The position numbers and the translations under genes are program-made. The notes under the pieces were generated by a model. It was not told where the DNA came from, searched no databases, and was given only the letters and a program-made list of their open reading frames with translations. A DNA stretch of 46,730 nt from Desulfovirgula sp. Lineage in GTDB: Bacteria; Bacillota; Desulfotomaculia; Desulfotomaculales; Desulfocucumaceae. Positions within the stretch are counted from its first letter, which is position 1, and every line of letters begins with the position of its first letter. This document shows, piece after piece, positions 1,211 to 37,612 of the stretch. The DNA is taken from contig DYET01000106.1 in the NCBI GenBank assembly GCA_020725625.1, forward strand, positions 1 to 46,730, read 5' to 3'.

Positions 1211-1248
1211 GTTTTTTCAAATCAAATTAAGGGAGGACGGTAGAAAAA

Positions 1249-2304: not shown

Positions 2305-2333
2305 GCTAAATACCGGCGGAGGTATAACCGGCA

Positions 2334-19169: not shown

Positions 19170-21490
19170 TTCCCCGCCTCCTTTAGCTGCGGATTGACCG
19201 CCCGGAATATTTTCTCCGGGGTAAAGGGCAGATCCCGGAGGCGAACCCCGACTGCATCTTCAATGGCATTGGCAATAGCCGGCGGCACGGGGATCAGCGT
19301 GGGCTCACCGACCCCTTTGGCGCCATAAGGCCCCACCGGGTCGTCGGTTTCCACGATAATGGGTTTTATTGAAGGCATGTCCTTGATGGTCATCAAAATA
19401 TAGCTACTGAGACTGGGATTCTGCAAAACTCCTTCTTTCAAGACCAGGTTTTCGCACAGCGCCCAGCCGGTTCCCTGGGCGACGCCGCCGCTGATTTGCC
19501 CCCGCACGCCCTTGGGGTTGATGGCGAATCCCACGTCGTGGGCAGCCGCCACGCGCAGCACCCGGACCTGTCCGGTTTCGGTGTCCACCTCCACCTCCAC
19601 CCCGTGGGCACCGTAATTGTACGCGCTGGAGTAATCGCCGTAATAGTCGCTGTCGGTCCCCTCGGTGGGCGGGTCGTAGGTGACGTAGGCGGTAAGTTCG
19701 GCGGCCTGCCTGGTCCGGATGCCGGCCCGGCAGGCCTCGGCCACCGTCATCCGCCTGCCCGGGTCCAGCCGGTCGAAGATTACCCCGTCCCTGATTTCCA
19801 GCCTGTCCGGACTTTCATTCATCAGTTTACCGGCCAGCTTCAGCAGCTGATCCCGCACCTGCCGGGCCGCCAGCAGCACCGCCTTGCCCCCCACGGTGGT
19901 CACCCGGCTGGAATAGGAACCGTAGCCGAAGGGGCTGACGTCGGTGTCGACCGGCATTACTATAACGTCACTCAGAGGTATTCCCAGGGCTTCGGCCGCG
20001 ATCTGGGCAAACACCGTGCGGGCCCCCTGTCCCATGTCGCTCTCCCCGGAATAAACCAGCAGCCTGCCGTCCTCCTGGAAGCGGACCATGGCCGAGGATC
20101 CGTCGAAATTGTCGCCGCCGCGGTTGCCCGAAACGTGGGTCATGCAGGCAACCCCCACACCCCGCCTGATCCTGCCCCCCGCTTCCTCCCCGGGCAGCCT
20201 GCCCTCCTTGATGGCGGCCGCAGCCTTATCTATACACTCGCTTAGGCCGCAGCTGCGCAGCTTCCAGCCGTGCAGGGTGGTGTCGCCGCTGCGGACGGCG
20301 TTTTTCAGCCTGACCTCCACCGGGTCAAGGCCCATTTTTCGTGCGCAGATGTCCACCATTGACTCCAGGGCGAAATGCATCTGGGCGTTACCGTAACCCC
20401 GGAAGCCGCTGGTGGGCACGTGGTTGGTGTATACCAGGCGGGACACTGTTCGGCTGGACCTGAACCGGTACAGGCAGTCCGTCCGCATGGACATGTTCAG
20501 AAGGATCTTGGGGGCCGCCCAGGAATAGGCGCCATTGTCGGCGATTATCTCGGCCTCCTTGCAGACCATGGTACCGTCCCGCATCATGCCCAGCTTTAGT
20601 TTGATACCGGCAGCCACCCTGGCCCGGGAGGCAATAAATTCCTCCTCCCGGGAAAGAACGATTTTAACCGGCCGGCCTGTCTTTCGGGCCAGCACCGCAG
20701 CGATGGGGTGGAAGTTGCGAATCCAGATTTTGCCGCCGAAACCGCCTCCTATGTAAGGCACCTTGACGGTGACCGAACTGGGGTCGATACCCAGGGCCTT
20801 GGCAATTTCGGCCCTGGCGTGAAAGGCGGACTGGATGCCGGTCCAAATGGTCAGCCGGCCGTTGGGCTCCCAGTCGGCGATCACGCCGAAGGGCTCCAGG
20901 TAGCAGGGCTGCACCAGAGAGGTGCCGAACTCCTCCTCAAATACACAGTCGCAGGAGGCGAAATCCTCGTCCACGTTGCCCCGTACTATTTCGTAGATTT
21001 TTGCTATGTTCCCCGGCTTATCCTCATGAACCAGGGGAGCCCCCGGAACCATGGCCTCCGCGGGATGGTAAACGGCCGGAAGGGGTTCGTACTCAACGTC
21101 GATAAGGGACAGCGCCTCTTCGGCGGCCTCCTCGCTGACCGCCGCCACCGCCGCCACCTCGTCGCCCGCGTAGCGGACTTTGTCCACCGCCAGCATGTAC
21201 ACGTCGGGGTTATCCAGGCCGAAACGGATGCCTGGGCAGTCGGCCGACGTAATCACCGCCTTCACCCCCGCCAGGGAGGCCGCCCGGGAAATGTCGATGC
21301 CTTTTATCCTGGCGTGGGGGTAGGGAGATCGCAGTATTTTCCCGTGGAGCATCCCGGGAAAGCTGAGGTCGTCCAGGTATCTGGCCCGTCCGGTGACTTT
21401 TTCCGCGGCATCGATAAAATCGGCGTCCCGGCCGACGGCCGAATGTTTGGTTTGCACTGTTCCACCTCCCCTAGTCAGGCCGAATGTCAT
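19166..21490 (-). CDS. Molybdenum hydroxylase large, molybdopterin-binding subunit (XDH family)
   Basis: GGGFGGK, GFRGYGNAQMHFALE and C-terminal GAKGVGEP. No CODH AYXCSFR motif. Confidence 0.93.
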   Translation of the reverse strand: MTFGLTRGGGTVQTKHSAVGRDADFIDAAEKVTGRARYLDDLSFPGMLHGKILRSPYPHARIKGIDISRAASLAGVKAVITSADCPGIRFGLDNPDVYMLAVDKVRYAGDEVAAVAAVSEEAAEEALSLIDVEYEPLPAVYHPAEAMVPGAPLVHEDKPGNIAKIYEIVRGNVDEDFASCDCVFEEEFGTSLVQPCYLEPFGVIADWEPNGRLTIWTGIQSAFHARAEIAKALGIDPSSVTVKVPYIGGGFGGKIWIRNFHPIAAVLARKTGRPVKIVLSREEEFIASRARVAAGIKLKLGMMRDGTMVCKEAEIIADNGAYSWAAPKILLNMSMRTDCLYRFRSSRTVSRLVYTNHVPTSGFRGYGNAQMHFALESMVDICARKMGLDPVEVRLKNAVRSGDTTLHGWKLRSCGLSECIDKAAAAIKEGRLPGEEAGGRIRRGVGVACMTHVSGNRGGDNFDGSSAMVRFQEDGRLLVYSGESDMGQGARTVFAQIAAEALGIPLSDVIVMPVDTDVSPFGYGSYSSRVTTVGGKAVLLAARQVRDQLLKLAGKLMNESPDRLEIRDGVIFDRLDPGRRMTVAEACRAGIRTRQAAELTAYVTYDPPTEGTDSDYYGDYSSAYNYGAHGVEVEVDTETGQVRVLRVAAAHDVGFAINPKGVRGQISGGVAQGTGWALCENLVLKEGVLQNPSLSSYILMTIKDMPSIKPIIVETDDPVGPYGAKGVGEPTLIPVPPAIANAIEDAVGVRLRDLPFTPEKIFRAVNPQLKEAGK

Positions 21491-21491: not shown

Positions 21492-22388
21492 CTAATCCCG
21501 GGACAGCCGCCGGACCAGCCCTTCGGGCCACATCACGGCCCGCCCCTGGACGAAAAGCACGGCCCCTTTGATCATTCCCTCCCGGTTCAGCTTCCGGGCC
21601 CTTTCCAGTCCCCCGGCCAGGGCCTCCTCCACGCTCTCATCCGGCAGGGGGCCGACCCCCCGGGTAACCAGGTGGCCCCGGATATCCGTCAGGTGGTCCA
21701 GTTCCTCGGCCAGGCACCTGTCCACGTTGGGGTGGTCGCAGCTGGCGGCGTTGGCGACGGCGGTGGCGGCGGCGTCGGCCAGGCCGGCGGTGTCCGCCAT
21801 CACCGTTACTGCCGAGGCCACGCCCTTGGTCAGGCTTCGCCCCCCCAGCCCGCTGGTGGCCACACCGCAGATTCCCGTGCCCGGCCCGATGTCGATGGCA
21901 TGGGTTACCCTGCCCTCGGCGAGGTCGCTGATGATTCCCACCCGGAAGGGGGGGCCGCCCGGACCCGGGTGCAGGGCGATATCCCCGCCGTTGTTCACCA
22001 CGGCCCGGTCGGACCCGGCGGCCACTACCGCCTCCATGACCAGGTCGGAAAAAGTGCCTGCCACCGCCGCCATGGGGGTGAAGTCGGCCTCTCCCAGCCT
22101 CCGCACCGAAAGGATCATCCGCCGCAGGACCTCCGGAAAGCGTTGATCCGCTGCCGGGTCCAGATCCCCCACCGGCCTGCGGGCCTGGGAAAGGAATTCA
22201 ACCACCTGGTTCAGCAGGACCGGCACCAGCTCAGCCCCGGCAACCGCACCTTCCGTGAAGGGAGCGCCCATCCGGCCGGCCTCGATGGTCATGGTCACCG
22301 GACCGTGGTCCACCAGCACCTTTCCCGGCCGCAGCACGCGGAAGAATTCAGTCGGATCCCCCACCGGCTTGTCATTCCGGTATCTCAT
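21492..22388 (-). CDS. UPF0280 family protein (ApbE-like fold)
   Basis: MTPMAAVAGTFSDLV-type region, VVNNGGDIAL and TSGLGGRSLTKG motifs. Confidence 0.8.
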   Translation of the reverse strand: MRYRNDKPVGDPTEFFRVLRPGKVLVDHGPVTMTIEAGRMGAPFTEGAVAGAELVPVLLNQVVEFLSQARRPVGDLDPAADQRFPEVLRRMILSVRRLGEADFTPMAAVAGTFSDLVMEAVVAAGSDRAVVNNGGDIALHPGPGGPPFRVGIISDLAEGRVTHAIDIGPGTGICGVATSGLGGRSLTKGVASAVTVMADTAGLADAAATAVANAASCDHPNVDRCLAEELDHLTDIRGHLVTRGVGPLPDESVEEALAGGLERARKLNREGMIKGAVLFVQGRAVMWPEGLVRRLSRD

Positions 22389-22501: not shown

Positions 22502-23509
22502 CTATTTACCCAGGGTGGCAATAATATCCTTGAACTTTTCGGCCCCTTCCAGGGTTTTCATAACCTCGGCATTCAGTTTGTCACCGCTGAGCGGGGCCGG
22601 CGGGTACTTGGCCTTGTCCATCTGATCCTTCCACTCCTGGTCATTGAAGACCTTGTTCATGGTTTCTTCCCAGATTTTCTTAATCTCTGGAGAAACACCG
22701 GCGGGGGCGGTCAGTATATGGGAGTACCCCAGCACGGATTCTTCAAGGTTCAATCCCAGGTCTTTCATGCTGGGTACATCCTTAATCTGGGGAACCCTCT
22801 CCGAGGCGGCAACAAACATCGGAACCAGCTTGCCCTCGTTGGCGTTCACCGCGCGCATGGCGCTGCTCCAGTTGACCACAAAGGCGTCGATGTCTCCCTG
22901 GGCAGCGGCAATGGAAGCCGGGCTGGTGCCGTCATAGCTGATAAACTTGGGTTCCACACCGAGCCCCTTGGCGATTACGGCACTCCTGAAGGCCACCCCG
23001 GACCCGATGGAAGCAAACCTCACTGTCTTACCCTTCATGTCGGCGGGGGTTTTAAAACCCGACTTCGCGCTCACCGTCAAAAGATCGGGAAGTTTGTCAA
23101 GACGTCCCAGCCAGGTAAGCTTCTTTAAGTCTACACCTTCCAGCTGCCCGCCTACCTGCAGGATAGCCACGTCGGCCGGGTCAATCACCGCAATGGTATG
23201 GCCGTCGGGCTTGGCCCTGACCATTTCCATCAAGCCGATTTTGCCGCCGGCGCCGGGAACGTTTTTCACCACCACGTTGACTTTTTTCGGAAGGTGTTTC
23301 TGGATATAGGGGGCGGTCGACCTGGCCACGACGTCGTAACCGCCGCCGGCCGCATAGGGCACAATCAGGGTTATGTCCTGCGCCGGCCAGTCCGGGGCCT
23401 TGGACTGCTGCTTGGCGTCACCGCCCCCGCCGCAGCCGCCGGCCAGCACCAACATGGCCAGAATTAGAGCCGGTGCGAACAGTTTTCTCAAGTCGGCCAA
23501 TCTTAACAT
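22502..23509 (-). CDS. tctC: Tripartite tricarboxylate transporter substrate-binding protein (TctC/BugT)
   Basis: Lipobox (VLAGGCGG); DITLIVPYAAGGGYDVVARSTAPYIQKHL. ATG 23509 preceded by GAGGAGGG. Confidence 0.92.
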   Translation of the reverse strand: MLRLADLRKLFAPALILAMLVLAGGCGGGGDAKQQSKAPDWPAQDITLIVPYAAGGGYDVVARSTAPYIQKHLPKKVNVVVKNVPGAGGKIGLMEMVRAKPDGHTIAVIDPADVAILQVGGQLEGVDLKKLTWLGRLDKLPDLLTVSAKSGFKTPADMKGKTVRFASIGSGVAFRSAVIAKGLGVEPKFISYDGTSPASIAAAQGDIDAFVVNWSSAMRAVNANEGKLVPMFVAASERVPQIKDVPSMKDLGLNLEESVLGYSHILTAPAGVSPEIKKIWEETMNKVFNDQEWKDQMDKAKYPPAPLSGDKLNAEVMKTLEGAEKFKDIIATLGK

Positions 23510-23659
23510 AACAAACCCTCCTCGTTTTTTTAGCCTGGAGAAACACACAAGCCGCCCCTGCCGCGACTTGCGGGCCTTCATGAAAAGTACCATTTTTTAT
23601 TTTTTCCGACAAACGTGATCGTGCAGGTTATGCTATTTCCATCCAATCCCCCCTCCGTG

Positions 23660-25636
23660 TTAAAACCTTATGCCTATCAACCCCGCAGGCAGGATCAAGT
23701 GAACCGCCTTGGCCATCAGCAGGACGCTCAATGCAACCAGGAAGCCGGCTAAAACGGCGTGCTTCAACTTTTGCCGGCCGGTCAGCAAAATGATACCGCC
23801 CGTAAAAACAGCGCTCGTCAATACAAAACCCAGAATATTCACCAGGACGGCGAACACGGCCATGGCGGAGACGGACCAGTGCCAGGTCAGGCTCCCGCTG
23901 AAAAGGAGGCCGGGCCGGGTGAACTTCCACCTTGCCGTCCCCAAACACCTCAGTACGCCTAAAATCCGGTATGCAACCAGGGCCATCCCGGTCGCGGAGA
24001 CCAGGTCGGGGAACATCCGGACCTGGGAGCCGTATCCCCGCGCGGTAATCAGGAATACCGCCAGGATAACCGCCATGAAAGCCAGGGCGATCAGTTCACC
24101 CTTGCAAAGCTGCTGATCCCCGGCACCGGCGGACGCAGTTTCCCCCGGCGTCCCGGCAGCTCCCCAGCGGCTGCGGACAAATTCCGCGAGGTAGGGACCG
24201 AACAGGAAAAGGAGGGTAACCGCCAGGAAGATTACGGCAATGGGACGGGTGAAGAATATATCGTAGGACCCGTAGCTGATTCCCAGGGACCGGTGAAAGT
24301 TGGCTTCCACCAGCGGCCCCAGGATCAGCCCCAGCACCAGGCAGACCACCGGGTATCCCAATTTCCCGAGGGCATAGGCAAATACTCCGAAAGCCAGGGC
24401 CAGCCAGATGTCAAACTCGTTGTTTCGCTCCGCAAAGGCTCCCAGAAAAATCAGCACTACGATTGTCGGGGCGATGATGTAATTGGGAACGTAAATGATT
24501 CGTGAAAACCACCGGGCCAGGATTACCCCGCTGATTAAAAAAGTGGCCTGGGCCAGGACAAGGCCGGCAAATATGGTGTAGGGCAGCGATCCGGCCAGCA
24601 GGAACCGGGGTCCCGGTTCAATTCCCTTGATAATCAGGGCCGCCATGAGAATTGCGCCGGTGACCGACCCCGGAACGCCGAGGGCGAAAGAAGGAATCAG
24701 GTCTCCCACCACGCAGGCTCCCTTGCCCACCTCCGCCGCCACCAGCCCGGCCGGGGCTCCCCGGCCGAAGCGGGAACTTTCCTTTGAATACTTCTTCTCC
24801 ACCAGGTACGACGCTATGCCGGCCAGCGACACGCCCATTGCAGGCAGGATGCCTATAAACCAGCCCACCGCCCCGGAGCGCAGCACCGTAAGGGGCCTTT
24901 TTACCACCTCCGGAAACCCCGACAACACGCTGTCCTTCACCTGCATCACCTTGGCTACCGTTCCGCCTTCCTCCATCAGGACAATGGCCTGGGAGATGGC
25001 GAAGACCCCCAGGGTGGAAACCACGATGGGAATCCCGGCCTCCAGGGACGGCACGCCGAAGGCAAAACGATAGGTAAGGCCGGTTACCTCGTCCTGTCCG
25101 ACCGTGGAGAGAACCAGGCCGAAGCAGGCCATGATCAGCCCCTTCATGGTTTCTCCCCTGGAGGCCACCGAGATCAGGCCCAGGGCCATCACGCCCAGGG
25201 CAAAATACTCGGGGGCGCCGATGGACAGCGCCAGCTTTGTCACCGGTCCCACCATCAGGGCCAGGAACAGCCAGGTTCCCACCCCTCCGATAAATGAGCT
25301 TAAAGTGGCTATCCCAAGGGCCTTTCCGGCTTTGCCCTGCCGCGCCATCGGGTACCCGTCCCAGCAGGTGGCCACGGTACCGGGGCCGCCCGGGGTGTTC
25401 AGGAGGATTGAGGCGATTGAATCGCCGTAGTTGCACGCGGCATGAATGGCACAAAGAAAGATGATGGCCGTGGCGGGGTCCATGCCGAAGGTAAAGGGCA
25501 GCATCAGGGCCACCCCGAAATTTGCTCCCAAAGCCGGGAGCGCCCCCACGATCAGCCCGATGCCCGTTCCGATCAGCAGCCAGATCAGGTTGGTACCGCT
25601 AATGGCGTTTAAAAATCCTTCAAACCACACGTTCAC
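23660..25636 (-). CDS. Fused TctA-TctB tripartite tricarboxylate transporter permease
   Basis: N-terminal ~490 aa TctA (GIGLIVGALPALGANFGVALMLPFTFGMDPATAIIFLCAIHAACNYGDSIASILLNTPGGPGT) then linker and ~150-aa TctB-like 4-TM domain. Confidence 0.88.
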   Translation of the reverse strand: MNVWFEGFLNAISGTNLIWLLIGTGIGLIVGALPALGANFGVALMLPFTFGMDPATAIIFLCAIHAACNYGDSIASILLNTPGGPGTVATCWDGYPMARQGKAGKALGIATLSSFIGGVGTWLFLALMVGPVTKLALSIGAPEYFALGVMALGLISVASRGETMKGLIMACFGLVLSTVGQDEVTGLTYRFAFGVPSLEAGIPIVVSTLGVFAISQAIVLMEEGGTVAKVMQVKDSVLSGFPEVVKRPLTVLRSGAVGWFIGILPAMGVSLAGIASYLVEKKYSKESSRFGRGAPAGLVAAEVGKGACVVGDLIPSFALGVPGSVTGAILMAALIIKGIEPGPRFLLAGSLPYTIFAGLVLAQATFLISGVILARWFSRIIYVPNYIIAPTIVVLIFLGAFAERNNEFDIWLALAFGVFAYALGKLGYPVVCLVLGLILGPLVEANFHRSLGISYGSYDIFFTRPIAVIFLAVTLLFLFGPYLAEFVRSRWGAAGTPGETASAGAGDQQLCKGELIALAFMAVILAVFLITARGYGSQVRMFPDLVSATGMALVAYRILGVLRCLGTARWKFTRPGLLFSGSLTWHWSVSAMAVFAVLVNILGFVLTSAVFTGGIILLTGRQKLKHAVLAGFLVALSVLLMAKAVHLILPAGLIGIRF

Positions 25637-25711: not shown

Positions 25712-27232
25712 CTATCTCCTGGGATACCACTGAAAGCGTCCTTCTCTGATTACTTCGCTCAGCGGCCTGATTGAGGAAATATGGCCGCCAATCCCGGCGT
25801 ACTTATGGCGCAGGATGGTGTATTCGACCGGAGCCACCACGGCCGGGGAGGTGGTGTAGGTAAACGGCTTTTCCACCATCTGTTCCACGTCGGCCAGAAA
25901 GGTAATCCCGCCGCCGGGCATCACGTAGGCCGGCGCGCCGGCTATGCTCAGCACCGCGTCGCCCCGGTGCACGGCCCGGGTAAGCTCAATGGGATTGACG
26001 GTCACCCCGGCCCGGGCGCTGCCGCCCACCCCGGCGTAGTACACGGCCGAAACCCGGGCCTCCTCACAGTTGGAGGCCAGCATCCGGCGAAGTTCCTCCA
26101 CCTCTTCGGGCAGGGGTGCCCGCACAGGCTCCCCGTCCGCATTGACCACGAACAGAGCCACATTGCGCCAGGTGGTCTCGGCCACCAGGATTTTCATGCC
26201 CGGCCTGGCGTAATTCATGTCTACGGACTTTATGGCCTGCCGGGGATCCTCGATGTTGGTGCCGCCCCAGCCGCTGCCGTGGTCGAAGAAATAGCGTCCC
26301 GGCGTGGCCGGCCGGCCCACCGGCTCGACGCCGCTATACGGAAGAAGCTCCGCTCCGGCTGGGTGGCGGGTCAAAAGTCCGGTAATGTGGTGGTCCAGGA
26401 TGATGGCCTCGTCCACCACCCCGGCCAGGAGGCCTGCAAAGAGGCCGCAGCAGGCTCCACCGCAGCCCACCCGCATTTTTTCGTCCAGGCTGCCGTTCAC
26501 CACCGGCGGCCTGCCCACCTGCAGGTCCAGGACGGATCCGCCGTCGATTTTGAGGCGGACGGGTTCCCGGTTGCCCAGTTCCACCATAGTCCTGACCACG
26601 GTCAGGCCGTGGGGGCCCTTCACCCGGTTGACGCCTCCCAGCAGCAGAACGTGGGACCCGTACTGCTCGGCGGTGACCATGCCCACCGCCTTTCCGTCCC
26701 TTTTGACCAGGGAACCCTCGTCACCTATATGCAGATTCGTGTCGATCTTTACAATCATGGAGCTATAGGAAATTGGCGCCTCCGTAACCACCGTGACCAC
26801 GTCGAAGTCCCCAACCCGGTCCTGGACAATGTACGGAGCCGGATGACAGTCGGGGTAGCTGGCGCCGGCCCCCACGGCGGTAATCAGCGGCCGGCTTAAA
26901 ACGGCCCTTTCCATGTCCGGGGGTAAGGGCTCCGGGATTTGCAGCGGCCTGTTGCGGACAAGATCCCCCCCGGTGTTGGTAAATCGCTTGCACGCACCGG
27001 TAAGGCCGGGCGGTATTTCACACCGGACGCCGCAAAAAGTGCAGGTCACGCTCCCGGGAACCGGTTCTCCCAGGGTCAGCGCCCCGGTCCTGCAGACCTT
27101 CAGGCAGGCCTGGCAGGCCGAGCAGCCGGCACCCGCCACAGCCTTTTTCCCCACCACCCTCACGGCGCCCAGTGGGCAGTTTTTTTCACATTCCCTGCAG
27201 CCGCTGCATTTCTCCGCATCAACCCTGATCAA
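25712..27232 (-). CDS. 6-hydroxynicotinate reductase-like iron-sulfur protein (Hnr family)
   Basis: N-terminal 2x[4Fe-4S] (CSGCRECEKNCPLGAV; CSACQACLKVCRTGAL), additional CTFCGVRCEIP, long C-terminal domain that I recognise as resembling Eubacterium barkeri Hnr. Recognised from memory. Confidence 0.62.
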   Translation of the reverse strand: MIRVDAEKCSGCRECEKNCPLGAVRVVGKKAVAGAGCSACQACLKVCRTGALTLGEPVPGSVTCTFCGVRCEIPPGLTGACKRFTNTGGDLVRNRPLQIPEPLPPDMERAVLSRPLITAVGAGASYPDCHPAPYIVQDRVGDFDVVTVVTEAPISYSSMIVKIDTNLHIGDEGSLVKRDGKAVGMVTAEQYGSHVLLLGGVNRVKGPHGLTVVRTMVELGNREPVRLKIDGGSVLDLQVGRPPVVNGSLDEKMRVGCGGACCGLFAGLLAGVVDEAIILDHHITGLLTRHPAGAELLPYSGVEPVGRPATPGRYFFDHGSGWGGTNIEDPRQAIKSVDMNYARPGMKILVAETTWRNVALFVVNADGEPVRAPLPEEVEELRRMLASNCEEARVSAVYYAGVGGSARAGVTVNPIELTRAVHRGDAVLSIAGAPAYVMPGGGITFLADVEQMVEKPFTYTTSPAVVAPVEYTILRHKYAGIGGHISSIRPLSEVIREGRFQWYPRR

Positions 27233-28190
27233 CCCGGTTTCCCTCCCGGCAGCTTACTGGGCCAAGGGCTTGCCCCGCCGGATCGGGCCGGGGAAAAAGC
27301 CCCGCCCGCCTTACGATTTCCGGCACCCTTTCCTCCAAGGCTATGGCCATAATGTGCACCCCGGCCACGCCCTTTACGTTCCTCATCCGGTCGATGGTCT
27401 CGACGCAGATTTTAACACCTTCTTCCTCGGGGTCCGGGGCCAGTTCCAGGCGCCTGACCACCTCCTCGGGAACAGTCACGCCCGGCACTCTTTCCTGCAT
27501 GAAGCGGGCGGCCCCGGCGGACCTGAGCAGGGAGACTCCGGCCAGGATGCCGACCTCCCGGTCCAGGCCGGCTTCCCTCACTCTTTCCATAAACCGGGAA
27601 AACCGTTCCAGGTCGAAAACGCACTGGGTCTGGACGAACCGGGCCCCCGCCCGGGCTTTTTTCTTAAGCTTGATTACCTGGAGGTCCACGGGGTCGGCAA
27701 AGGGATTGACCACCGCCCCGACATAGGCCTCCAGGGAAACCTCCATCTTCCGTCCCCCGGGGAACAGGCCGCGGGTCATGTCAGCCGCCAACCTTACCAA
27801 CTGCACCGAATCCAGGTCGAAAACGCTTTTGGCCTGGGGGTCGCTGCCGAAACGCTGGTGGTCGCCGGAAAGGCAAAGTATGTTGCGCACCCCCTGGGCC
27901 ACCGCCCCCAGGATGTCGCTCTGTATTGCAATCCGGTTCCGGTCCCGGCAGGTAACCTGGAAGACCGCGTCTATACCCATCCGGGCCAGTTCGCCGCAGC
28001 AGGCCTGGCTGGAAAGGCGGGCGACGGCGGACTGGTTGTCCGTGATATTGACGGCGTCCACATACCGGCGCAGCAATTCGGCCTTTTGCCGCAACGGCGC
28101 GAAGTCGGCAAACCTGGGCGGGCCCACCTCCGCAGTAACGGCGAAGTGCCCTGCTTCCAGCACTTTCCGGAGATTGCTAGGCTTAGACAA
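27219..28190 (-). CDS. metF: Methylenetetrahydrofolate reductase (MetF)
   Basis: FAVTAEVGPP...YVDAVNITDNQSAVARLSS...GVRNILCLSGDHQRFGS; follows metV. Confidence 0.87.
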   Translation of the reverse strand: MSKPSNLRKVLEAGHFAVTAEVGPPRFADFAPLRQKAELLRRYVDAVNITDNQSAVARLSSQACCGELARMGIDAVFQVTCRDRNRIAIQSDILGAVAQGVRNILCLSGDHQRFGSDPQAKSVFDLDSVQLVRLAADMTRGLFPGGRKMEVSLEAYVGAVVNPFADPVDLQVIKLKKKARAGARFVQTQCVFDLERFSRFMERVREAGLDREVGILAGVSLLRSAGAARFMQERVPGVTVPEEVVRRLELAPDPEEEGVKICVETIDRMRNVKGVAGVHIMAIALEERVPEIVRRAGLFPRPDPAGQALGPVSCREGNRVDQG

Positions 28191-28863
28191 TTGGCATGTC
28201 CTCCCTCTCCAGTCTTCTGGGCCCGCCCCAGTGCCCCCTGGACCAGTCTTTTGGCGGGCGGTATTCTTCCAGCAGGTTCAGTTCCCCCCGGGCGGCAAGC
28301 CGGTCGTAAATAATCTGCCAGGCGCAGTGATTTTCGGTGTTTGCCTCGCACCGGCCATTCCGGGACCCGCCGCAGGGGCCGTTCAGCAAACCCTTGGCGC
28401 AGCGGGTGATGGGGCATACCCCCGCGGTCTGGTCCAGCAGGCAGTCCCCGCAGCCCAGGCAAACCTCCTCCCAGAGGCCCTGCCTTACCGGCAAGCCCGA
28501 CCCCAGGGTATCCAGGCCGGGCAGAATCAGCTTTCCGGGCCGGAAAAGGCTGTAGCGCTGGACTCCCACGCCGCAGGCCAGGGAAAGCACCACCTGGAAG
28601 TGGGGCAGATCTGCGTCCAGGGTCTCCAGGAATTCGGGTTCACACTGGCGCTCCACCACCCGGGCCCGCACCTCTACCGGCCTTCCCTCCGCCTGCCTGT
28701 GCAGCCTTAAAACGGCTGCGGTCTCCTCGGCTTCCTTTAGCCCGCCTGACATGCACACCGTCACGCAGGACCCGCAGCCGGCGATGAGAATCCGGTCGTA
28801 TGGATCAAGCATTTCAAAGATCCGCTTAAGCGGTTTCCTCTGGCCGATGATCATCGGCTTCAC
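28183..28863 (-). CDS. metV: MetV-like methylenetetrahydrofolate reductase C-terminal domain protein
   Basis: MIIGQRKPLKRIFEMLDPYDRILIAGCGSCVTVCMSGG...C-terminal CLGCGDC..CPITRCAKGLLNGPCGG. Confidence 0.87.
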   Translation of the reverse strand: MKPMIIGQRKPLKRIFEMLDPYDRILIAGCGSCVTVCMSGGLKEAEETAAVLRLHRQAEGRPVEVRARVVERQCEPEFLETLDADLPHFQVVLSLACGVGVQRYSLFRPGKLILPGLDTLGSGLPVRQGLWEEVCLGCGDCLLDQTAGVCPITRCAKGLLNGPCGGSRNGRCEANTENHCAWQIIYDRLAARGELNLLEEYRPPKDWSRGHWGGPRRLEREDMPIV

Positions 28864-30520
28864 CTACCCTATTGTTCACTTCCAGGCCGTTTAAAAAGTT
28901 CCGGGTCACACCCGCCAGGTCAAGGGCCTCAAGGCCGGTCAGGCTGATATGGGCGATTACCTTATGGCTTAGCCCGGCTTCCTCCAGGATCCTCCCGGCC
29001 CGCCTGACCCTGTGGGGAGCCCAGGGATGATGGTGCCGGTACTTGCATTCCGGATTTTCCTCACTCCTGCAGCCGGCCAGCAGGATCCCGTCCACCCCCA
29101 GCTCCAGGATGCGGATCATCTGCACGGTCTCCACCCGGCCCGGGCAGGGCACCCTGACCAGCGCGGCGCTGTGAGCCAGGCCGCCGGGCAAAAATTTATC
29201 GTCGCAACGGTACGGGCCGGAAGCGCAGGTGATCACCAACACCCGCCGCTGCCCGGGGCTTAACTTTTTAACCGCCGGTTCCACCTGCCGGGACACCCAG
29301 TCGTACTGGGGGTCAGCCTGAAACCGCACCACGCGGGCCGGGCACAGCCCGGCGCACATGCCGCACTCGTCGCACCACTCATTCCCGAACTCCAGCCTGC
29401 CCTTTTCATTGATGAAGGGCAGGCGGTACGGGCAGTTGCGCAGGCAGGCCAGGCAGCGGGCGCACTCCCTCTCCATGCACCGGATGGGGTCGTCGGGGTG
29501 GCGGCGCTTGTACAGGCAACTGTTGCAGCAGACGCAGGTCCTGACCAGATCCGGGCGGCCGGCCTGGACTTTTTTCACCCACTTGTCGTCGGCCAGCAGC
29601 GGCCGGGCCATGGCCACCATGTCCACCCTGCCCTGCTCTATAACACTGGCGGCAAACTCCGGGTTGCCCAGCTTGCCCACGGCGATAACCGGCACGCCGA
29701 CGTGCCGCTTGATATCCTCGGCCAGGTACAGGTTGGGGCCGTCCTCGTACTCCACGGTTGGCTTGCCCCGGAGGTCGCTGTACCCCTTCAGGCCGCCGTC
29801 GTCGAAGCGCACCCCCACGGTGACGTCGATGCAGTCGACGCCCATTTTCTCCAGTTCCCCGGCGATAACCCGGCTTTGCTTGAGAGTGTTTCCGCCGATC
29901 ACAAACTCGTCGGCGCAAATACGGGCAAACAGCGTCACCTCCGGGCCCATCATCTCCCTGATGCCGTTGATTATTTCCCGATGGGCCTTCATCCGCCCGT
30001 ATACATCCCCGCCGTACTCGTCCAGTCTTTTGTTGGTGCGGCGGGAAAGGAGATCGGCCATGGTGTACGTATGGGCAAAGTGCAGCTCCACCACGTCGAA
30101 GCCTGCTTCGTAAGCCCGCCGTGCCCCCTCGATGAACTCCCGGATCATTTCCAGGATTACCCTTTTAGGCAGGTCTTCCGGCTTCAGCCCCACGCCGTGG
30201 ATGGAATGGGCAATCTGCAGCCCGGCGGCGGCGCCAGCCTCCTTGATTACCCGGGCCAGCCTGGCCAGGCCGGGAACGTGCAGGTCCGTGGAAATCTGGA
30301 GGCGGTTGCCGCCGTGGATGTAATAGCCGCTCACGCCGGTATGTTCCACCATGACCAGCCCCACCCCGGCAGCCGCCCTCTTCTGGTAATGCCTTAAGGT
30401 CCAGTCGGTGACGAACCCCCCCGGGGCGGCCGAGTTGGAAAAGGCCGGAGACATCATAATGCGGTTTTTCAGAACCAGCTTGTTAATCTTAATCGGCGTA
30501 AACAGCCCCACTTTTTCCAA
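28826..30520 (-). CDS. OYE-family FMN oxidoreductase fused to 4Fe-4S domain and MvhD-like domain
   Basis: OYE barrel (LFTPIKINKLVLKNRIMMSPAFSNSA...MADLLSRRTNKRLDEYGGDVYGRMK), then CARCLACLRNCP and CDECGMCAGLCP, then MvhD-like CASGPYRCDD...VPCPGRVETVQMIRILELGVDGILLAGC. Confidence 0.85.
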   Translation of the reverse strand: MEKVGLFTPIKINKLVLKNRIMMSPAFSNSAAPGGFVTDWTLRHYQKRAAAGVGLVMVEHTGVSGYYIHGGNRLQISTDLHVPGLARLARVIKEAGAAAGLQIAHSIHGVGLKPEDLPKRVILEMIREFIEGARRAYEAGFDVVELHFAHTYTMADLLSRRTNKRLDEYGGDVYGRMKAHREIINGIREMMGPEVTLFARICADEFVIGGNTLKQSRVIAGELEKMGVDCIDVTVGVRFDDGGLKGYSDLRGKPTVEYEDGPNLYLAEDIKRHVGVPVIAVGKLGNPEFAASVIEQGRVDMVAMARPLLADDKWVKKVQAGRPDLVRTCVCCNSCLYKRRHPDDPIRCMERECARCLACLRNCPYRLPFINEKGRLEFGNEWCDECGMCAGLCPARVVRFQADPQYDWVSRQVEPAVKKLSPGQRRVLVITCASGPYRCDDKFLPGGLAHSAALVRVPCPGRVETVQMIRILELGVDGILLAGCRSEENPECKYRHHHPWAPHRVRRAGRILEEAGLSHKVIAHISLTGLEALDLAGVTRNFLNGLEVNNRVGEADDHRPEETA

Positions 30521-30611: not shown

Positions 30612-31862
30612 TCAAATCAGGCCCCGCTTCTTGGCCCTCAGGATGGCCAAAATCCTTTCCTGCTCGTTGTACACCGTCATGACCCCCTCGTCCACGCCCA
30701 TTCCGGGCTTGCCGGCCATGGCGAAGGGCTGGGTGGCGACGGCCAGGTTGACGCATACCCGGGCCGACTTGTCGGTTTCGTTGCAGGTACCGCCCTGATA
30801 GGCCAGCACCCCGTTCCGCTTGCAGTAGAGCACCGCCTCCACGATGTTGGTGATACCGCCCAGGTCGATGGTCTTCACCTGGACCATGTCGGCCCCCTTG
30901 GCGTCGACCCAAACCCTGATCTCCTCCAGGGTGTTGGCGTACTCGTCGATGATCAGCTTCAGCCCTGACCCTGCTTCGTCAAGCCGGCGGCGCAGGTACT
31001 TCATCCCCTCCAGTTGGGCCTCACCGGTCTTCAGGTCAATGGGCATTTCAATAAAAACCTCGAAGGGAGAGCATACTTTCTCAACCTTGATCAGGTAGTC
31101 CACCACCCTGTCCAGGTCGTTGTTGAAGGCCTTGCCGATGCAGCCGTACACATCATACCGGAGGGTGGGCCGGTAATCCGGGGACCCGATGTCCAGGATG
31201 CGGTTTTTCACCCAAGCCGCGTACTCCAGGAAAATCTCGCCGTTTTTACCCAGCTTTTCCTCCACGTTGTTGATCAGGCCGTGGGGCATCATCCCCACCT
31301 GCTTGAGAATCATCTTGTCGACGTTGGTGTACCGATCGTCGCCGGACTGGGCGTTGATTTTCACCGGCTGCGGAACCAACTCAAGGCCGTACTCATCGGC
31401 CACCACCTCGGCCATGGTCAGCCGCCGCTCCCGGGCCACCGCCTCCAGGATAGCCTGGGTGACACCGTAGCGGATGGAGGCCGGCAGGTGCTCCCCGTTC
31501 ACCTCCAGGCGGTCAAACTCGCCGGCGTCCTTACGGAAACTGGTCAGGTCCCTCCCTTCCAGCCAAGGCACCACATCCCTTTCAATAATTTTGATCAGGT
31601 CCCCGGCCCTGACGGGGACCTCCCGGCCGCCGCTGGCTGCATACTGGGCGACCGCGCAGTCGCCGTAAACAACCTCGCCGCTCTCCATGACCAGGATTAC
31701 CGAAACGGCCTCGCCGGTCTGCCTGATTGTGCTGAATCCGGGAGTCAGTGGCCGGCCCCGGTAGATGAAACCGTCCTGCCTGGCGCCTTCCCTGATGGCT
31801 TCCTTGTCGTCCATGTAAAAGCCGGTCAGGCCGGCGGCGCACAGTACTCTCCTGACCTTCAT
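30612..31862 (-). CDS. mal: Methylaspartate ammonia-lyase
   Basis: KVRRVLCAAGLTGFYMDDKEAIREGARQDGF...INAQSGDDRYTNVDKMILK...HGLINNVEEKLG...YQGGTCNETDKSA...KPGMGVDEG, near full-length match to the remembered Clostridium MAL. Start at internal Met. Confidence 0.92.
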   Translation of the reverse strand: MKVRRVLCAAGLTGFYMDDKEAIREGARQDGFIYRGRPLTPGFSTIRQTGEAVSVILVMESGEVVYGDCAVAQYAASGGREVPVRAGDLIKIIERDVVPWLEGRDLTSFRKDAGEFDRLEVNGEHLPASIRYGVTQAILEAVARERRLTMAEVVADEYGLELVPQPVKINAQSGDDRYTNVDKMILKQVGMMPHGLINNVEEKLGKNGEIFLEYAAWVKNRILDIGSPDYRPTLRYDVYGCIGKAFNNDLDRVVDYLIKVEKVCSPFEVFIEMPIDLKTGEAQLEGMKYLRRRLDEAGSGLKLIIDEYANTLEEIRVWVDAKGADMVQVKTIDLGGITNIVEAVLYCKRNGVLAYQGGTCNETDKSARVCVNLAVATQPFAMAGKPGMGVDEGVMTVYNEQERILAILRAKKRGLI

Positions 31863-31934
31863 TTTTCTCCGATGCACCTCTGACTTTCTCTGTAAATTTG
31901 ACAAATGGTTTGAAATACCTTTGAGTAATTCTTG

Positions 31935-33281
31935 TTACGACACCCGCCGGCCGTCCCGGGCCACCAGCCGGCCTCCGATGAAGATGGCTTCCACCTTTGA
32001 GATTTCCGGGTAGGCGGTGATGATCACATCGGCGGTATAGCCTTTCTGCAGCAGGCCGAGGTTGGGTGCGATGCCGGGAATGGCCCCGGCTACATTTTTG
32101 GTCCCCAGGGCGACGGCTTCTGCCAGGCCGATGAGCTTCCGCTCCACCCCATGCTGCATGGCCTCCAGCATGGAATCGAAGCTGCCGGCGGCGAAATCGG
32201 TGGAAATGACATCGGCCAGGCCCTCCTTGAAGAAGGCGAACAGGTTGTCGGGAACGGTCACCAGCCGCTTGGCTCCGAAGGGGTCGTGCACGGCGGCATC
32301 GATAATCACCCCGGGGTACTGGCGCAGCTTTTTAGTGTTCTCCACCGCCTCCTCAGTGGTGAACAGGTAGTTGGAGTGAGCGGCGATGAGGCGCTGCACC
32401 CCCATTTGGGCCACCTCGTGGACCGTTTTCATGGAGGTGGGGGCGTTGTGGATGAGAAGGGGGACGTTGAGCTTTCTGGCCAGCTCCGCAGCCTCCCGGT
32501 ACGCTTCCAGGGCCACCTTCACCGAGGCCATGGTGGTCTGCAGGACGATTTCCCGGGTCTGCTCCGGGGTGAGAAAGCCGTCCAGACCGTGTTCTTTAAG
32601 GGCTTGGGCCACCCGGTCCCGGTCATAGTACGACTCTTCCATGTACCGGCCCAGCACCGATAGCTTCATGGCCCGGGCCTGCAAGTAGTCGATGTCGCGG
32701 CCGGTAGCCTTTTTCACCGCCCGGGGAATGTACAGGTAGTCCTGGCCACCCCCTCCCAGGGTGTGCCCGCCGCCCACCTCGCCGATACAGATGGCACCCT
32801 CCTCCAGCATTTTTTCCACTGTCATGGCTTGATGCTTTTCTTCCAGCCCGGCCCCGTCGCAGCGGAATGCCGCCTCAAAATTGACCGGGGTGTGGGTGGT
32901 GGCAGTTTTGATCCGTATGGGGTGAGCCTTTTGGGTCTCCCTGACCTCGTCCATGGTTGCGAAGCCGTCAACGTTCATCACCGTGGTGTGGCCCTGAAGC
33001 AGGTTCCTGTCCAGCAGTTCCATCACCCGCTGCCGCTCGTAGGGCTTCGCCCCGCTGGCAAACACCGGCCCGAAAACCACCCCGTGCTGGTGGTGGTTGA
33101 TCATGCCGGGCAAAATGGCCTTTCCGGCACAGTCAAAAACCTCGGCGGCGTAATTTTCCACCGACGGGTCAAGGCAGTCGGTCACCTCGGCAATCCGGTC
33201 GCCCTTGATGATCACCGAGGCCTTCTCCATTATCGTCTTCCCGTCCCCGGTTACGACGGTGCCGTTTTTCAGAAGCAGCAT
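31935..33281 (-). CDS. Amidohydrolase family protein (enamidase-like candidate)
   Basis: HxH metal motif GMINHHQHG; GEVGGGHTLGGGG; VISTDFAAGSFDSMLEAM; C-terminal KGYTADVIIT. Confidence 0.82.
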   Translation of the reverse strand: MLLLKNGTVVTGDGKTIMEKASVIIKGDRIAEVTDCLDPSVENYAAEVFDCAGKAILPGMINHHQHGVVFGPVFASGAKPYERQRVMELLDRNLLQGHTTVMNVDGFATMDEVRETQKAHPIRIKTATTHTPVNFEAAFRCDGAGLEEKHQAMTVEKMLEEGAICIGEVGGGHTLGGGGQDYLYIPRAVKKATGRDIDYLQARAMKLSVLGRYMEESYYDRDRVAQALKEHGLDGFLTPEQTREIVLQTTMASVKVALEAYREAAELARKLNVPLLIHNAPTSMKTVHEVAQMGVQRLIAAHSNYLFTTEEAVENTKKLRQYPGVIIDAAVHDPFGAKRLVTVPDNLFAFFKEGLADVISTDFAAGSFDSMLEAMQHGVERKLIGLAEAVALGTKNVAGAIPGIAPNLGLLQKGYTADVIITAYPEISKVEAIFIGGRLVARDGRRVS

Positions 33282-33314: not shown

Positions 33315-34112
33315 TTATCTTTCCGGACTGTTAATTCTCCACAGCTTCCGCTCCGCCGGCCCGTCATACTGGTGGTCGGCGGGGCTGATTATGCGCATGG
33401 GCTTCTGGGTGGTCATCTCCTCGTAAACGTGGGCGGTCAGGCCGGGTATCCTGGCAATAATGAACACGGCGTTGGCCAGTTCCACGGGAAAATCCATCTC
33501 GCACAGCAGTGCGGCGATGGCGCCGTCCACATTGATGGGCAGTTCCTTTCCGGTTTCCCGGGCAAAGGCCTCCTGAATGGCCTGGGCCATCTCCACGAAT
33601 TCACCCGCCACCCCTGCCTCCCGGGCTATGCTGAACAGCTTGGCGGTGCGGGGGTCGTTGGTGTGCACCCGGTGTCCGTATCCCGGCAGTTTCAGCCCCT
33701 TCTGGCGCCGGAATTTGACCAATGAGGCGGCCGCCTCGCCGGCAGTTAGCCCCCCGTCCCGCTTTTGTTCCACGGCCTCCTTCAGCACCTGCATGCAGTT
33801 CTCTATGGCCCCGCCATGATGCCTGTTGATGGAAAGCACCCCGGCAGCCAGGGAAGCGTTGAGGGAAGCCCCGGTGGAAGCCACCGTCCGGGCCGCCAGG
33901 GTTGAGGGCGGGGTGGCTCCATGATCGATGGAGGAAACAAGGATGGCGTTCAGCACCTGCGCCACCGCCGGCGGCGGCAGTTCGCCTTTGAGAATCAAAT
34001 AAACCACCTCGGCGAAAGACAGCCTGCCCATCAGCTCATCCAGCCGATAGCCGCGGATCAGCAGCTTGTTGGGCTCCACCTTGGTGATGGCGGTTTTCCA
34101 TTTTTCCGACAT
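33315..34112 (-). CDS. Citrate synthase superfamily, citryl-CoA lyase-like short form
   Basis: 265 aa; KTAITKVEPNKLLIRGYRLDELMGRLSFAEVVYLILKGELP...PGYGHRVHTNDPRT...NVDGAIAALL. Confidence 0.85.
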   Translation of the reverse strand: MSEKWKTAITKVEPNKLLIRGYRLDELMGRLSFAEVVYLILKGELPPPAVAQVLNAILVSSIDHGATPPSTLAARTVASTGASLNASLAAGVLSINRHHGGAIENCMQVLKEAVEQKRDGGLTAGEAAASLVKFRRQKGLKLPGYGHRVHTNDPRTAKLFSIAREAGVAGEFVEMAQAIQEAFARETGKELPINVDGAIAALLCEMDFPVELANAVFIIARIPGLTAHVYEEMTTQKPMRIISPADHQYDGPAERKLWRINSPER

Positions 34113-34158: not shown

Positions 34159-35076
34159 TCATCCGGCCTTCCCCGCTTCCAGGTCCTCCATGACCGCCCC
34201 GGCGGCGGCCGGAATATCGCTGAACGCTTCAACCACCAGGGCTCCGGCGTCCCTCAGCGCCCGCACCTTGCCTTCATACGTGCCGAAGCCGCCCTCGATT
34301 ATTGCCCCGGCATGGGAAAAGCGGGTGCCGGACCTGGCGGCCCTGCCGCCGATGTAGGCTACCAGAGGCTTGGTGAACCCGCCGTTCCTAATCAGCCCGG
34401 CCACCTCTTCCTCCTGGTTGGTTCCGATTTCACCGAACAGCACCACCATCGCGGTCTCCTTATCGGCTTCAAATTCCCTCAGCACGTCGGCTTCCCGCAT
34501 GCCGATGATGGCGTCGCCGCCGACGTGAACGATGGTGCTCAGGCCAAGGCCGGCCTTGCACAGGTAGTATGAAATGGCCGAGGTCATGCCACCGCTCCTG
34601 GATATTACCCCCACATTGCCCGGCCGAAACCACTCCCTGGCCGCCTGGGCCCGCCCCCCAATCATGCCCAGAACAGCCTGGCCCGGGCTGATCAAACCCA
34701 GGGTATTGGGGCCGATAAAACGCGCCTTCTTCTCCCTGGCAAAGGCAGCAATTTCCATGACGTCATAAATGGGCACCCGGTCCGGCACCAGTACCGCCAG
34801 CTTTACCCCGGCGTCGAAGGCTTCCAGGGCGGCGTTCTTAACCAGCGGGGCGGGTACGAAAATTACGCTGACATCAATGTGGCCCCGATCTTCCCGGGCC
34901 TGAACCACTGAATCGTAGACCGGGATTCCGTGCACCTCGTCTCCCCGCCGGCCGGGGGTAACCCCGGCCACCACGTTGGTGCCGTAGTCCTTCATCAGCT
35001 TGGCCCGGGCCGACCCCTCCCGGCCGGTTATGCCCTGAATCAGAACCCGCTTGCTTGCATCTATCAAAATGGCCAT
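34159..35076 (-). CDS. Succinyl-CoA ligase alpha-like subunit (CoA-binding, phosphohistidine SHAGAII)
   Basis: RVLIQGITGREGSARAKLMKDYGTNVVAGVTPGRRG; GVISRSGG; FSHAGAIIEGG. Confidence 0.88.
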   Translation of the reverse strand: MAILIDASKRVLIQGITGREGSARAKLMKDYGTNVVAGVTPGRRGDEVHGIPVYDSVVQAREDRGHIDVSVIFVPAPLVKNAALEAFDAGVKLAVLVPDRVPIYDVMEIAAFAREKKARFIGPNTLGLISPGQAVLGMIGGRAQAAREWFRPGNVGVISRSGGMTSAISYYLCKAGLGLSTIVHVGGDAIIGMREADVLREFEADKETAMVVLFGEIGTNQEEEVAGLIRNGGFTKPLVAYIGGRAARSGTRFSHAGAIIEGGFGTYEGKVRALRDAGALVVEAFSDIPAAAGAVMEDLEAGKAG

Positions 35077-35093: not shown

Positions 35094-35360
35094 TTAGTCA
35101 ACTTGCGGCAGGGGAAGGGAAAAAGTCAGGCCCCCCTTGCCCCGGTAATGACACTCCAGTTCGCAGGCCAGGCACTCGATGCACTTCCCCCTGGCCACCT
35201 CCCCGGGTTCCATGGCCAGACTGGGCCGCCCGTCTTCTTCCTTGAGGACTTTTGGGGCACAGGCCGCAATGCAAGGTTTCTCCCGGCAATCCCGGCATTT
35301 TCCGGTATCCACGGTTACCTCACCGGTAAGGGTTTTAAACTTATACAACACGAATCTCAC
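35094..35360 (-). CDS. Small ferredoxin-type 4Fe-4S protein
   Basis: CRDCREKPCIAAC and CIECLACELECHYRGKGG; lies between the two CoA-ligase subunit genes. Confidence 0.82.
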   Translation of the reverse strand: MRFVLYKFKTLTGEVTVDTGKCRDCREKPCIAACAPKVLKEEDGRPSLAMEPGEVARGKCIECLACELECHYRGKGGLTFSLPLPQVD

Positions 35361-36597
35361 CAGCCCTTCCCGCCTTCTTTTTTTGCTCCTCGACCAGTGT
35401 TCTCAGCCGCTCCACGCAGTAATCCACACTGGTGTCCCGGCCATAGGCCTCTACCGGGGCAGGCAAGTCCCTGGTATACCTGGTAAGGATGTCTATGGCC
35501 AGTTCCTCCCCGTTACCGCCCACCCTGATGACCGCCGGGATGGAAAGGTTAACCTCGCGGAAAGCCTTCACCAGGCCCCGGGCAGTGTGATACTGCTCCT
35601 GGCTTGCCACTCCGGACCCCGAATAGAAATACCCTTCCAGGTTTGCCTGGGAAAGTATGATTTTGGCCGCCCGGTAAATCTTTGAGGCCGGCGGGTTGCC
35701 GCTGGTATCGACAAAATTGGGAATTTTGAATCCGCCGCGCTGGAGTGCGTCCATGGCCATCATCGACCCGCCCCCCCCGGCACCGTGAAACCCTATGTAC
35801 CCGCCGCCGCTGGTATCCATCTCCAACTGCATGAAATAGAATGTTCCGCGGTAGTCGCCGGCCTCAACCAGATAGGCGATCCGCTCAAGCTTTGTTGGGG
35901 GATGGTCGAATTCCCTGGCCACCTCGATACCGATCTCGGGATGGCGAAAAACGGCGTTGTCGTCAACGGTAATCCGGCCGTCCAGGGCGTAGAACCTTCC
36001 GTCCCTAGACAGGGCAACGGGGTTTATTTCGGCTGACCTGGCCTCATACTTCCGGGCCGTCCGGTAAAGTCTGACGAGCAAATCCGCCAGTCCGGGCAGT
36101 TCTCGGCTGGGAACGCCGAGGCGGATCAGCAGGTTTCTGGCCGTGAACTCCTGCAGACCAACCCTCACGTCGATGGGGTAAGAAATCATCTTGCCCGGAT
36201 GGCCCTTGGCCAGTTCCTCGATGCCGCTGCCCCCCATGGAACTAAATACCAGCATCGGCGCCCGGCTGGCGTCATTGACGATGATGCTGGCGAAATACTC
36301 CTTGACCACCTCTTTCCTTTCCTCGACCAGCACCTTCTCCACCCTGACCCCGTTGAAGGTCAGGCCGAACATTGTTTCGGCCGCCAGTTCGGCCTCGGCC
36401 GGAGTGTCGGCAAACTTTATTGCTCCCTTGTCGGCCCGCCCGGTTACCAGGGCCTGGGCCTTGACCACAACCGGGCAGCCCAGCCTCTCGGCCGCCTGCC
36501 TCGCCTGGCAGGCGTTGACTACCACCTCTCCCAGGCAGACGGGTATTCCCTCGGCCCTGAACAATTCCTTGCTCTGGTGTTCAAAAAGCTTCGTCAT
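35341..36597 (-). CDS. Succinyl-CoA ligase beta-like subunit (ATP-grasp)
   Basis: MTKLFEHQSKELFRAEGIPVCLGEVV...VVKAQALVTGRADKGAIKFADTPAEAE; divergent C-terminal half. Confidence 0.87.
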   Translation of the reverse strand: MTKLFEHQSKELFRAEGIPVCLGEVVVNACQARQAAERLGCPVVVKAQALVTGRADKGAIKFADTPAEAELAAETMFGLTFNGVRVEKVLVEERKEVVKEYFASIIVNDASRAPMLVFSSMGGSGIEELAKGHPGKMISYPIDVRVGLQEFTARNLLIRLGVPSRELPGLADLLVRLYRTARKYEARSAEINPVALSRDGRFYALDGRITVDDNAVFRHPEIGIEVAREFDHPPTKLERIAYLVEAGDYRGTFYFMQLEMDTSGGGYIGFHGAGGGGSMMAMDALQRGGFKIPNFVDTSGNPPASKIYRAAKIILSQANLEGYFYSGSGVASQEQYHTARGLVKAFREVNLSIPAVIRVGGNGEELAIDILTRYTRDLPAPVEAYGRDTSVDYCVERLRTLVEEQKKKAGRAGEIRVV

Positions 36598-36754: not shown

Positions 36755-37612
36755 TTACAGTTCAACCGTCGCCCTGCGCGGGTCGAAACAGCACCCCACC
36801 CGAAGGGAGACAATGCGCACCCCGCTGGCCCTCTGGGGGCCTACCCTGACAAAGGAGGCCAGGGCCGTGGTTTTCCCCCCGAGGCCCAGGGGGCCGATCC
36901 CGGTCCGGTTAATCTCGGCGGTGATGTGCCGCTCCAGGGGGCTCTGCAGGGTAAAATCGCCGTTCTTCATGGCCTCCAGGGCCAGGGAGGCGGCCTCCAG
37001 GTTTGTCCGCCCGATGCCGAAAGCCGGCACGCAGGGCAGGCAGCCCAGCCTGGCCGCCCCTTCCGCAGCCCAGCGGACCATCTCGGCCAGCACCGCCTCC
37101 AAGGAGTGCTCGTGGAACACGCGCATCGTGCGGCCTCGGATTTCCGGCCCGCCGCCCAGCATCAGCACGGTGATTTTCAACCGGTCCCCGGGCATCCTCT
37201 TAATCTGGAACGGGGCAGGAACCAGGGCTCCGGGGTCTTCCGCCAGCCCTGCCGACTGCGTAATGCGCTGGGTTTCGTCACCCAGCACGGCCATGGGGCG
37301 GCCCGGAAGCCGCCGCAGGCCCCTGGCGATACCCTCCCCGACCGCCTCCAAAAAGCCCGCCGGCAGTTCAGCCCGGTCGCCCACCTCCAGGAAAACGTGG
37401 GGAACCCCGGTGTCGTCGCACAGGGGGACTTGCCTGTCGGCGGCCACCCTGAAATTTTCAAAAATCGCCTCAAGCACCCATCGGGCGCTGTCGCTGTCTT
37501 CGTTCCGGATGGCCTCCTGATAGCGCTGCTGCTGGTCCGGGCGCCAGGTGGTGCTGGCCCTGATCAGGGCTTCCTGCACCGCCTCAACAATCTGATTGAA
37601 GCTTACAGCCAT
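36755..37612 (-). CDS. Class I fumarase/tartrate dehydratase-type hydratase, alpha (N-terminal) subunit
   Basis: VPLCDDTGVPHVFLEVG...GCLPCVPAFGIGRTNLEAASLALEAMKNG. Confidence 0.9.
   Translation of the reverse strand: MAVSFNQIVEAVQEALIRASTTWRPDQQQRYQEAIRNEDSDSARWVLEAIFENFRVAADRQVPLCDDTGVPHVFLEVGDRAELPAGFLEAVGEGIARGLRRLPGRPMAVLGDETQRITQSAGLAEDPGALVPAPFQIKRMPGDRLKITVLMLGGGPEIRGRTMRVFHEHSLEAVLAEMVRWAAEGAARLGCLPCVPAFGIGRTNLEAASLALEAMKNGDFTLQSPLERHITAEINRTGIGPLGLGGKTTALASFVRVGPQRASGVRIVSLRVGCCFDPRRATVEL

Follow-up and report, generated by a model that had tools for sequence, protein, structure and literature searches.

An old yellow enzyme-MvhD fusion encoded with MetV and MetF in a candidate anaerobic pyridine-dicarboxylate operon of Desulfovirgula sp.

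The stretch of DNA analysed here (the window) comprises positions 1-46,730 of contig DYET01000106.1 (assembly GCA_020725625.1, Desulfovirgula sp.) and contains three overlapping genes encoding an old yellow enzyme (OYE) barrel fused to iron-sulfur and MvhD-like domains, together with the MetV and MetF subunits of a methylene-tetrahydrofolate (THF) reductase. We propose that the three proteins form a redox complex serving an operon for the anaerobic breakdown of a pyridine dicarboxylate, most likely quinolinate, and give this full account a probability of roughly 0.4. The role of the trio is probably in this operon and not in general C1 metabolism; for quinolinate itself as the substrate of the operon, the odds are about even. 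The evidence that can be read from the DNA consists of the domains and cluster motifs of the trio, the order and conservation of the genes, a promoter, and changes in the pocket of a neighboring ammonia-lyase.

The OYE fusion and its MetVF partners

The fusion gene (oye; 28826-30520, minus strand) encodes a protein of 564 residues that may act as both an ene-reductase and an electron wire. It is followed on the same strand by metV2 (DUF5981; 28183-28863, 226 residues), for the [4Fe-4S]/Zn subunit, and metF2 (27219-28190, 323 residues), for the FMN-containing methylene-THF reductase subunit. The original prediction, made from the sequence alone, placed all three genes exactly, and its domains were borne out by Pfam matches to Oxidored_FMN (E 7.6e-51) and FlpD/MvhD (E 7.1e-14, residues 450-546) in the fusion, DUF5981/MetV in MetV2 (E 2.7e-33) and MTHFR in MetF2 (E 1.3e-41). 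The overlaps it described between oye and metV (38 bp) and between metV and metF (8 bp) are real, and a further overlap of 14 bp, which it missed, joins metF to the following hnr gene; this mutual overlap of oye, metV, metF and hnr suggests that the four are translationally coupled.

The fusion carries three [4Fe-4S]-type motifs and four MvhD-type cysteines, rather than the two clusters first counted. The OYE barrel spans residues about 6-324 and is followed by a motif of the 2,4-dienoyl-CoA reductase (DCR)/TMADH type (C329/332/335/348), by two CxxCxxCxxxC motifs (C353/356/359/363 and C383/386/389/393), and by C432, C459, C484 and C492, which align with the four cysteine columns of canonical MvhD (the [2Fe-2S] site); the first 25 positions of the Pfam FlpD/MvhD model are unmatched. 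As in DCR, TMADH and BaiCD, an Oxidored_FMN barrel with an HxxH motif (H147, H150, followed by the retained Y152) precedes a CxxCxxCx12C cluster, but the C-terminal NAD(P)/FAD domain of those enzymes is absent; in its place are ferredoxin (Fd) and MvhD domains, which would wire the barrel to MetVF. The best HdrA-type match, to the HdrA2 model, is confined to the C-terminal Fd and MvhD end (positions 576-768 of 777), so that the fusion looks like an HdrA2-like protein (Methanosarcina acetivorans type) whose N-terminal FAD (TrxR-like) domain was exchanged for an OYE barrel. Together with the position of the fusion beside MetVF, this alignment agrees with the earlier proposal that the OYE stands in for HdrA. 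As that proposal also held, no HdrA or Rnf gene was found among the window open reading frames (ORFs) read. FlpD has no other match on the contig.

MetV2 and MetF2 are both full length and intact, and they are encoded side by side as is typical of MetVF. MetF2 has the AE(V/I)GPP, SGD and QTQ motifs in common with canonical MetF. Elsewhere in the source genome (G000), contig C185 bears a canonical HdrA-MvhD-MetV-MetF set in which MetV and MetF come after HdrA and an MvhD with selenocysteine; MetV2 and MetF2 are 48% and 52% identical, respectively, to their counterparts there. Given this second set, the notion that the trio acts mainly as an acetogenic methylene-THF reductase is not supported. 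Three MvhD copies of the source genome (C185 1821-2189, C91 2239-2607 and C119 1651-2019) contain an in-frame TGA, probably a selenocysteine codon, which occupies one of two positions (HYU or SGU/GGU). The apparent absence of acetyl-CoA synthase from this genome is an artefact: contig C63 begins within the gene (3-344), and PF03598 misses the truncated copy.

The fusion was identified in 2 of the 399 genomes of the phylum, and a scan of a species-level genome collection found one further full-length copy, which corresponds to the locus in Clostridiales bacterium PH28_bin88 (G112). This comparison genome, from a family other than that of the source, contains the same genes in the same order across about 22 kb, with 66-85% identity per gene and 79% for the fusion. 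This independent occurrence, and purifying selection on the folded domains (NG86 dN/dS of about 0.10 in the barrel and 0.28 in the MvhD part), show that the fusion is neither a chance product nor a misassembly. It was seen only together with this catabolic gene set. None of the 28 other metV loci read has an OYE upstream of metV (the picture of ORFs on the relevant strand is unclear in a few of them); the usual neighbor is HdrA(-MvhD), MvhD or an AcsE-type methyltransferase. A literature search returned nothing joining MvhD with an old yellow enzyme.

A catabolic operon and its probable substrate class

The trio belongs to a single gene set of about 20 kb, which would supply the probable OYE substrate and was absent from the original prediction. 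The set stands behind a sigma-54 promoter, TGGCACGATTATTGC (38211-38225, minus strand), a perfect match to the consensus used, with 0.10 matches expected by chance in the window. This promoter occupies the gap between the gene for a PrpR-type sigma-54 activator (38313-40265, minus strand) and the first gene of the operon, and PH28_bin88 has a sigma-54 site with one mismatch in the corresponding gap. All genes of the operon are on the minus strand, with a largest intergenic gap of 157 bp. Reading from the promoter, fumB-fumA-like genes for the beta (37603-38139) and alpha (36755-37612) subunits of a class I fumarase-like hydratase are followed by genes for a SucC-like acyl-CoA ligase beta subunit (35341-36597), a small Fe-S protein (35094-35360), a SucD-like alpha subunit (34159-35076), a citryl-CoA-lyase homologue (33315-34112; best solved relative 6hxp, E 5e-65), an amidohydrolase (31935-33281) and a methylaspartate ammonia-lyase (MAL) homologue (30612-31904). 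Then come the trio and a gene for a homologue of 6-hydroxynicotinate reductase (HNR; 25712-27232), 42-43% identical to annotated HNRs, followed by genes for TctA-like (transporter subunit; 23660-25636) and TctC-like (substrate-binding; 22502-23593) proteins, both assigned by reading the sequence, for UPF0280 (21492-22388), a weakly ApbE-like protein and usual HNR neighbor, and for a three-subunit molybdenum hydroxylase (17755-21490). Divergent from the operon are genes for the alpha, beta and gamma subunits of a 2-oxoacid:ferredoxin oxidoreductase (KOR; 40667-43202, plus strand), the beta subunit being closest to the 2-oxoglutarate type. In PH28_bin88, the TctA-like and TctC-like genes have no counterpart in the set and are replaced, in the interval from HNR to UPF0280, by a second, single-chain molybdenum hydroxylase (932 residues; contig C88, L012 7262-10060); the set is followed by a protein reading like DUF1989 (L012 1536-2177). 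Elsewhere in the window, FeoB appears to be split into two ORFs, a GTPase part and a membrane part (4771-6953), and the 5-oxoprolinase subunit PxpA lies beside an apparent TRAP transporter (260-4132).

No other part of the operon says as much about the pathway as the MAL homologue. It scores 506 bits against a TIGRFAM cut-off of 286 and retains every catalytic, metal and alpha-carboxylate residue, but its methyl pocket is altered: N170 and A384 replace the F170 and L384 found in 29 of 29 other MALs, with K168 (P168K) and R236 (H236R) nearby. The L384A/G change makes MAL accept large C2 substituents (PMC4517298), and 3-aminobutanoate, which has no alpha-carboxylate, is not used by MAL (PMC7241714); taken together with the pocket changes, these findings indicate that the substrate should be an aspartate carrying a large polar 3-substituent. 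The compound 3-(2-carboxyethyl)aspartate fits this description; complete ring saturation of 6-hydroxyquinolinate and hydrolysis of the resulting lactam would yield this amino acid. Methylaspartate itself is an unlikely substrate, since glutamate mutase E was not found in the source genome.

HNR homology across the domain and the presence of UPF0280 and a molybdenum hydroxylase in the set point to a hydroxypyridine acid as the substrate class. In each of the two genomes, another HNR is encoded close to an enamidase-like amidohydrolase and a dehydrogenase of the MMSDH type (L070, G000:C45, 4173-8639; L071, G112:C47), and the amidohydrolase on C45 matches the Eubacterium barkeri enamidase 2vun (E 5e-163). 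The window amidohydrolase is not an enamidase of the E. barkeri type, as 2vun is not listed among its matches; by sequence reading, the majority of the remaining HNR loci in the phylum have an enamidase-like neighbor of ~387 residues and UPF0280. Given the second HNR/enamidase loci, nicotinate itself is probably not what the window set degrades. Relatives of the window amidohydrolase in rhizobia (39%) had no informative context in the single locus opened, and proteobacterial plasmid-borne HNR loci have different gene neighborhoods. At the second HNR loci, an MMSDH-type CoA-acylating dehydrogenase occurs in place of Hgd/Hmd, which suggests a nicotinate shortcut from 2-formylglutarate to glutaryl-CoA and CO2. 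A UbiD-family decarboxylase and a UbiX-type prenyltransferase (L070 15386-17416) were also observed near one of these loci.

Proposed pathway and alternative explanations

From known reaction types, we infer the substrate, the intermediates, the complex and the direction of electron flow as follows. The molybdenum hydroxylase would convert quinolinate to 6-hydroxyquinolinate, the HNR-family enzyme would carry out the first ring reduction (C4=C5), and the OYE barrel would reduce C2=C3 to give 6-oxopiperidine-2,3-dicarboxylate. One further two-electron reduction, of a C=C bond bearing two carboxylates and the ring nitrogen, is needed between HNR and the lactam hydrolase, and the OYE, with its retained HxxH and tyrosine, is the obvious candidate. 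Lactam opening by the amidohydrolase would then yield 3-(2-carboxyethyl)aspartate, from which the MAL homologue would remove ammonia to give homoaconitate; the fumarase-like enzyme would hydrate this to homocitrate, which the SucCD-like ligase and the citryl-CoA-lyase homologue (a putative homocitryl-CoA lyase) could convert via homocitryl-CoA to acetyl-CoA and 2-oxoglutarate. Such a route would be the methylaspartate pathway with the methyl group replaced by carboxyethyl: both have an ammonia-lyase, a class I hydratase and a cleavage to an acetyl unit and a 2-oxoacid, whereas the window has an enlarged polar pocket, a CoA ligase and lyase, and no glutamate mutase. Molybdenum hydroxylase, HNR and UPF0280 are also common to the E. 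barkeri-type nicotinate cluster, from which the window differs in its amidohydrolase and in its lower pathway, with MAL and citryl-CoA-type cleavage. With two electrons released by the molybdenum hydroxylase, two consumed by each of HNR and OYE, and two released by KOR, the pathway would be redox neutral overall.

Electrons would pass between the OYE FMN and the MetF FMN by way of the DCR-type cluster, the two [4Fe-4S] clusters, the MvhD [2Fe-2S] cluster and MetV. Flow from methyl-THF to the ring C=C bond appears to be the likelier direction, in which case C1 oxidation would help to drive ring reduction; with an E0' of -200 mV (PMC9430772), methyl-THF is able to reduce a C=C bond of higher potential. 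The presence of both a separate HdrA-type MetVF set and acetyl-CoA synthase favors ring reduction driven by methyl-THF; the main rival is the reduction of methylene-THF by NAD(P)H. In its most specific form, the proposal is that of a methyl-THF:enoate oxidoreductase in which the OYE reduces a partly reduced pyridine ring via MetF, MetV and MvhD, within a quinolinate pathway ending in homocitryl-CoA cleavage; taken whole, this version is tentative and rather unlikely. The earlier idea that an unsaturated pathway intermediate is coupled to methylene- or methyl-THF is plausible in that a ring-reducing catabolic operon needs an ene-reduction, but there is nothing except analogy behind the flavin bifurcation that accompanied it.

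Several observations weigh against a ring-reducing complex of this kind. OYEs usually draw electrons straight from NAD(P)H, in which case MetVF would be needless for ring reduction. If the potential of the ring C=C bond lies well under -200 mV, reduction by methyl-THF would be barred. The active-site loop past residue 110 of the OYE is ~25 residues shorter than that of solved OYEs, and a FARICADEF stretch carries R in the window OYE and V in the PH28_bin88 copy. An AlphaFold2 model of the fusion (4-sequence alignment) had a mean pLDDT of 56.5, too poor for a test of the pocket. In addition, PH28_bin88 does not have the Kor genes next to its copy of the gene set, and the substrate assignments for these enzymes depend on sequence comparison.

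There are several potential alternative explanations for the trio. The OYE barrel could be a mere NAD(P)H-oxidising module, an activity common among OYEs, and the fusion occupies the position of HdrA beside metV. MetVF cannot bind NADH, and acetogens recruit RnfC2 or HdrA as NADH modules (PMC8760232, PMC9430772). However, the operon requires an ene-reduction for which the OYE is the sole candidate there, an HdrA-type MetVF already exists in the source genome, and the fusion was found only with this catabolic set, so that such a role seems somewhat unlikely. Flavin-based bifurcation or confurcation, coupling methyl-/methylene-THF and the ring substrate with ferredoxin or NADH, is improbable: the HdrA flavin domain, the proposed site of bifurcation, is replaced by the OYE barrel, a third redox partner is not encoded in the block, and we know of no bifurcating OYE. 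The analogy is with MvhD and MetVF, which belong to complexes proposed to bifurcate (PMC9430772, PMC6085437).

Two other pathways would place the trio in a different catabolic context. A nicotinate route was the first idea considered; here the OYE would reduce 1,4,5,6-tetrahydro-6-oxonicotinate, the amidohydrolase would form 2-(aminomethyl)glutarate, from which the MAL homologue would release 2-methyleneglutarate. Membership of the HNR family and an electron balance equal to that of the E. barkeri route are consistent with it, but it was demoted to a slim chance by the separate HNR/enamidase loci, by the failure to find methylitaconate isomerase (PrpF/Mii) in the source genome, and by the alpha-carboxylate that MAL needs and 2-(aminomethyl)glutarate lacks; extra steps would also be needed to reach citryl-CoA-lyase chemistry. 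Ordinary methylaspartate (glutamate) fermentation alongside unrelated redox genes is very improbable despite the TIGRFAM score of the MAL homologue and was rejected: the source genome lacks glutamate mutase E, with B12-binding proteins mostly adjoining acyl-CoA-mutase-like genes, the methyl pocket is changed, and HNR, molybdenum hydroxylase and amidohydrolase are co-conserved with the set.

Implications for MetVF electron partners

Acetogen methylene-THF reductases come in four described arrangements (PMC8760232, PMC9430772); which partner exchanges electrons with MetVF under physiological conditions is a standing question in the field. Type IV (Hdr-type) MetVF of Moorella thermoacetica and Sporomusa ovata (PMC8760232, PMC9430772) has MetV, MetF and an MvhD module with an Fe-S wire in common with the window; however, hdrCBA and a separate mvhD are not adjacent to the trio, which has an OYE barrel for the HdrA flavin domain in a single protein fused to the MvhD-like domain, within a catabolic operon. 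Type III MetVF-RnfC2 of Acetobacterium woodii likewise combines MetVF with one adjacent flavin/Fe-S module, but that of the window is OYE-MvhD, and no rnfC2 was found among the window ORFs read. The L384A change, which engineers made to broaden the substrate range of MAL, arose naturally in the ammonia-lyase of this operon.

A literature search did not find a genetic description of anaerobic quinolinate breakdown. The operon supplies concrete, testable candidate genes for an anaerobic route of pyridine-dicarboxylate breakdown, previously undescribed as far as searched. The earlier interpretation of the trio is partly supported but is placed in a different context, that of a proposed specialised fifth MetVF arrangement within such an operon. 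If this is true, MetVF paired with a substrate-reducing flavoenzyme would be able to work with an organic partner besides NADH or ferredoxin, and C1 oxidation would be linked to the reduction of a pyridine ring.

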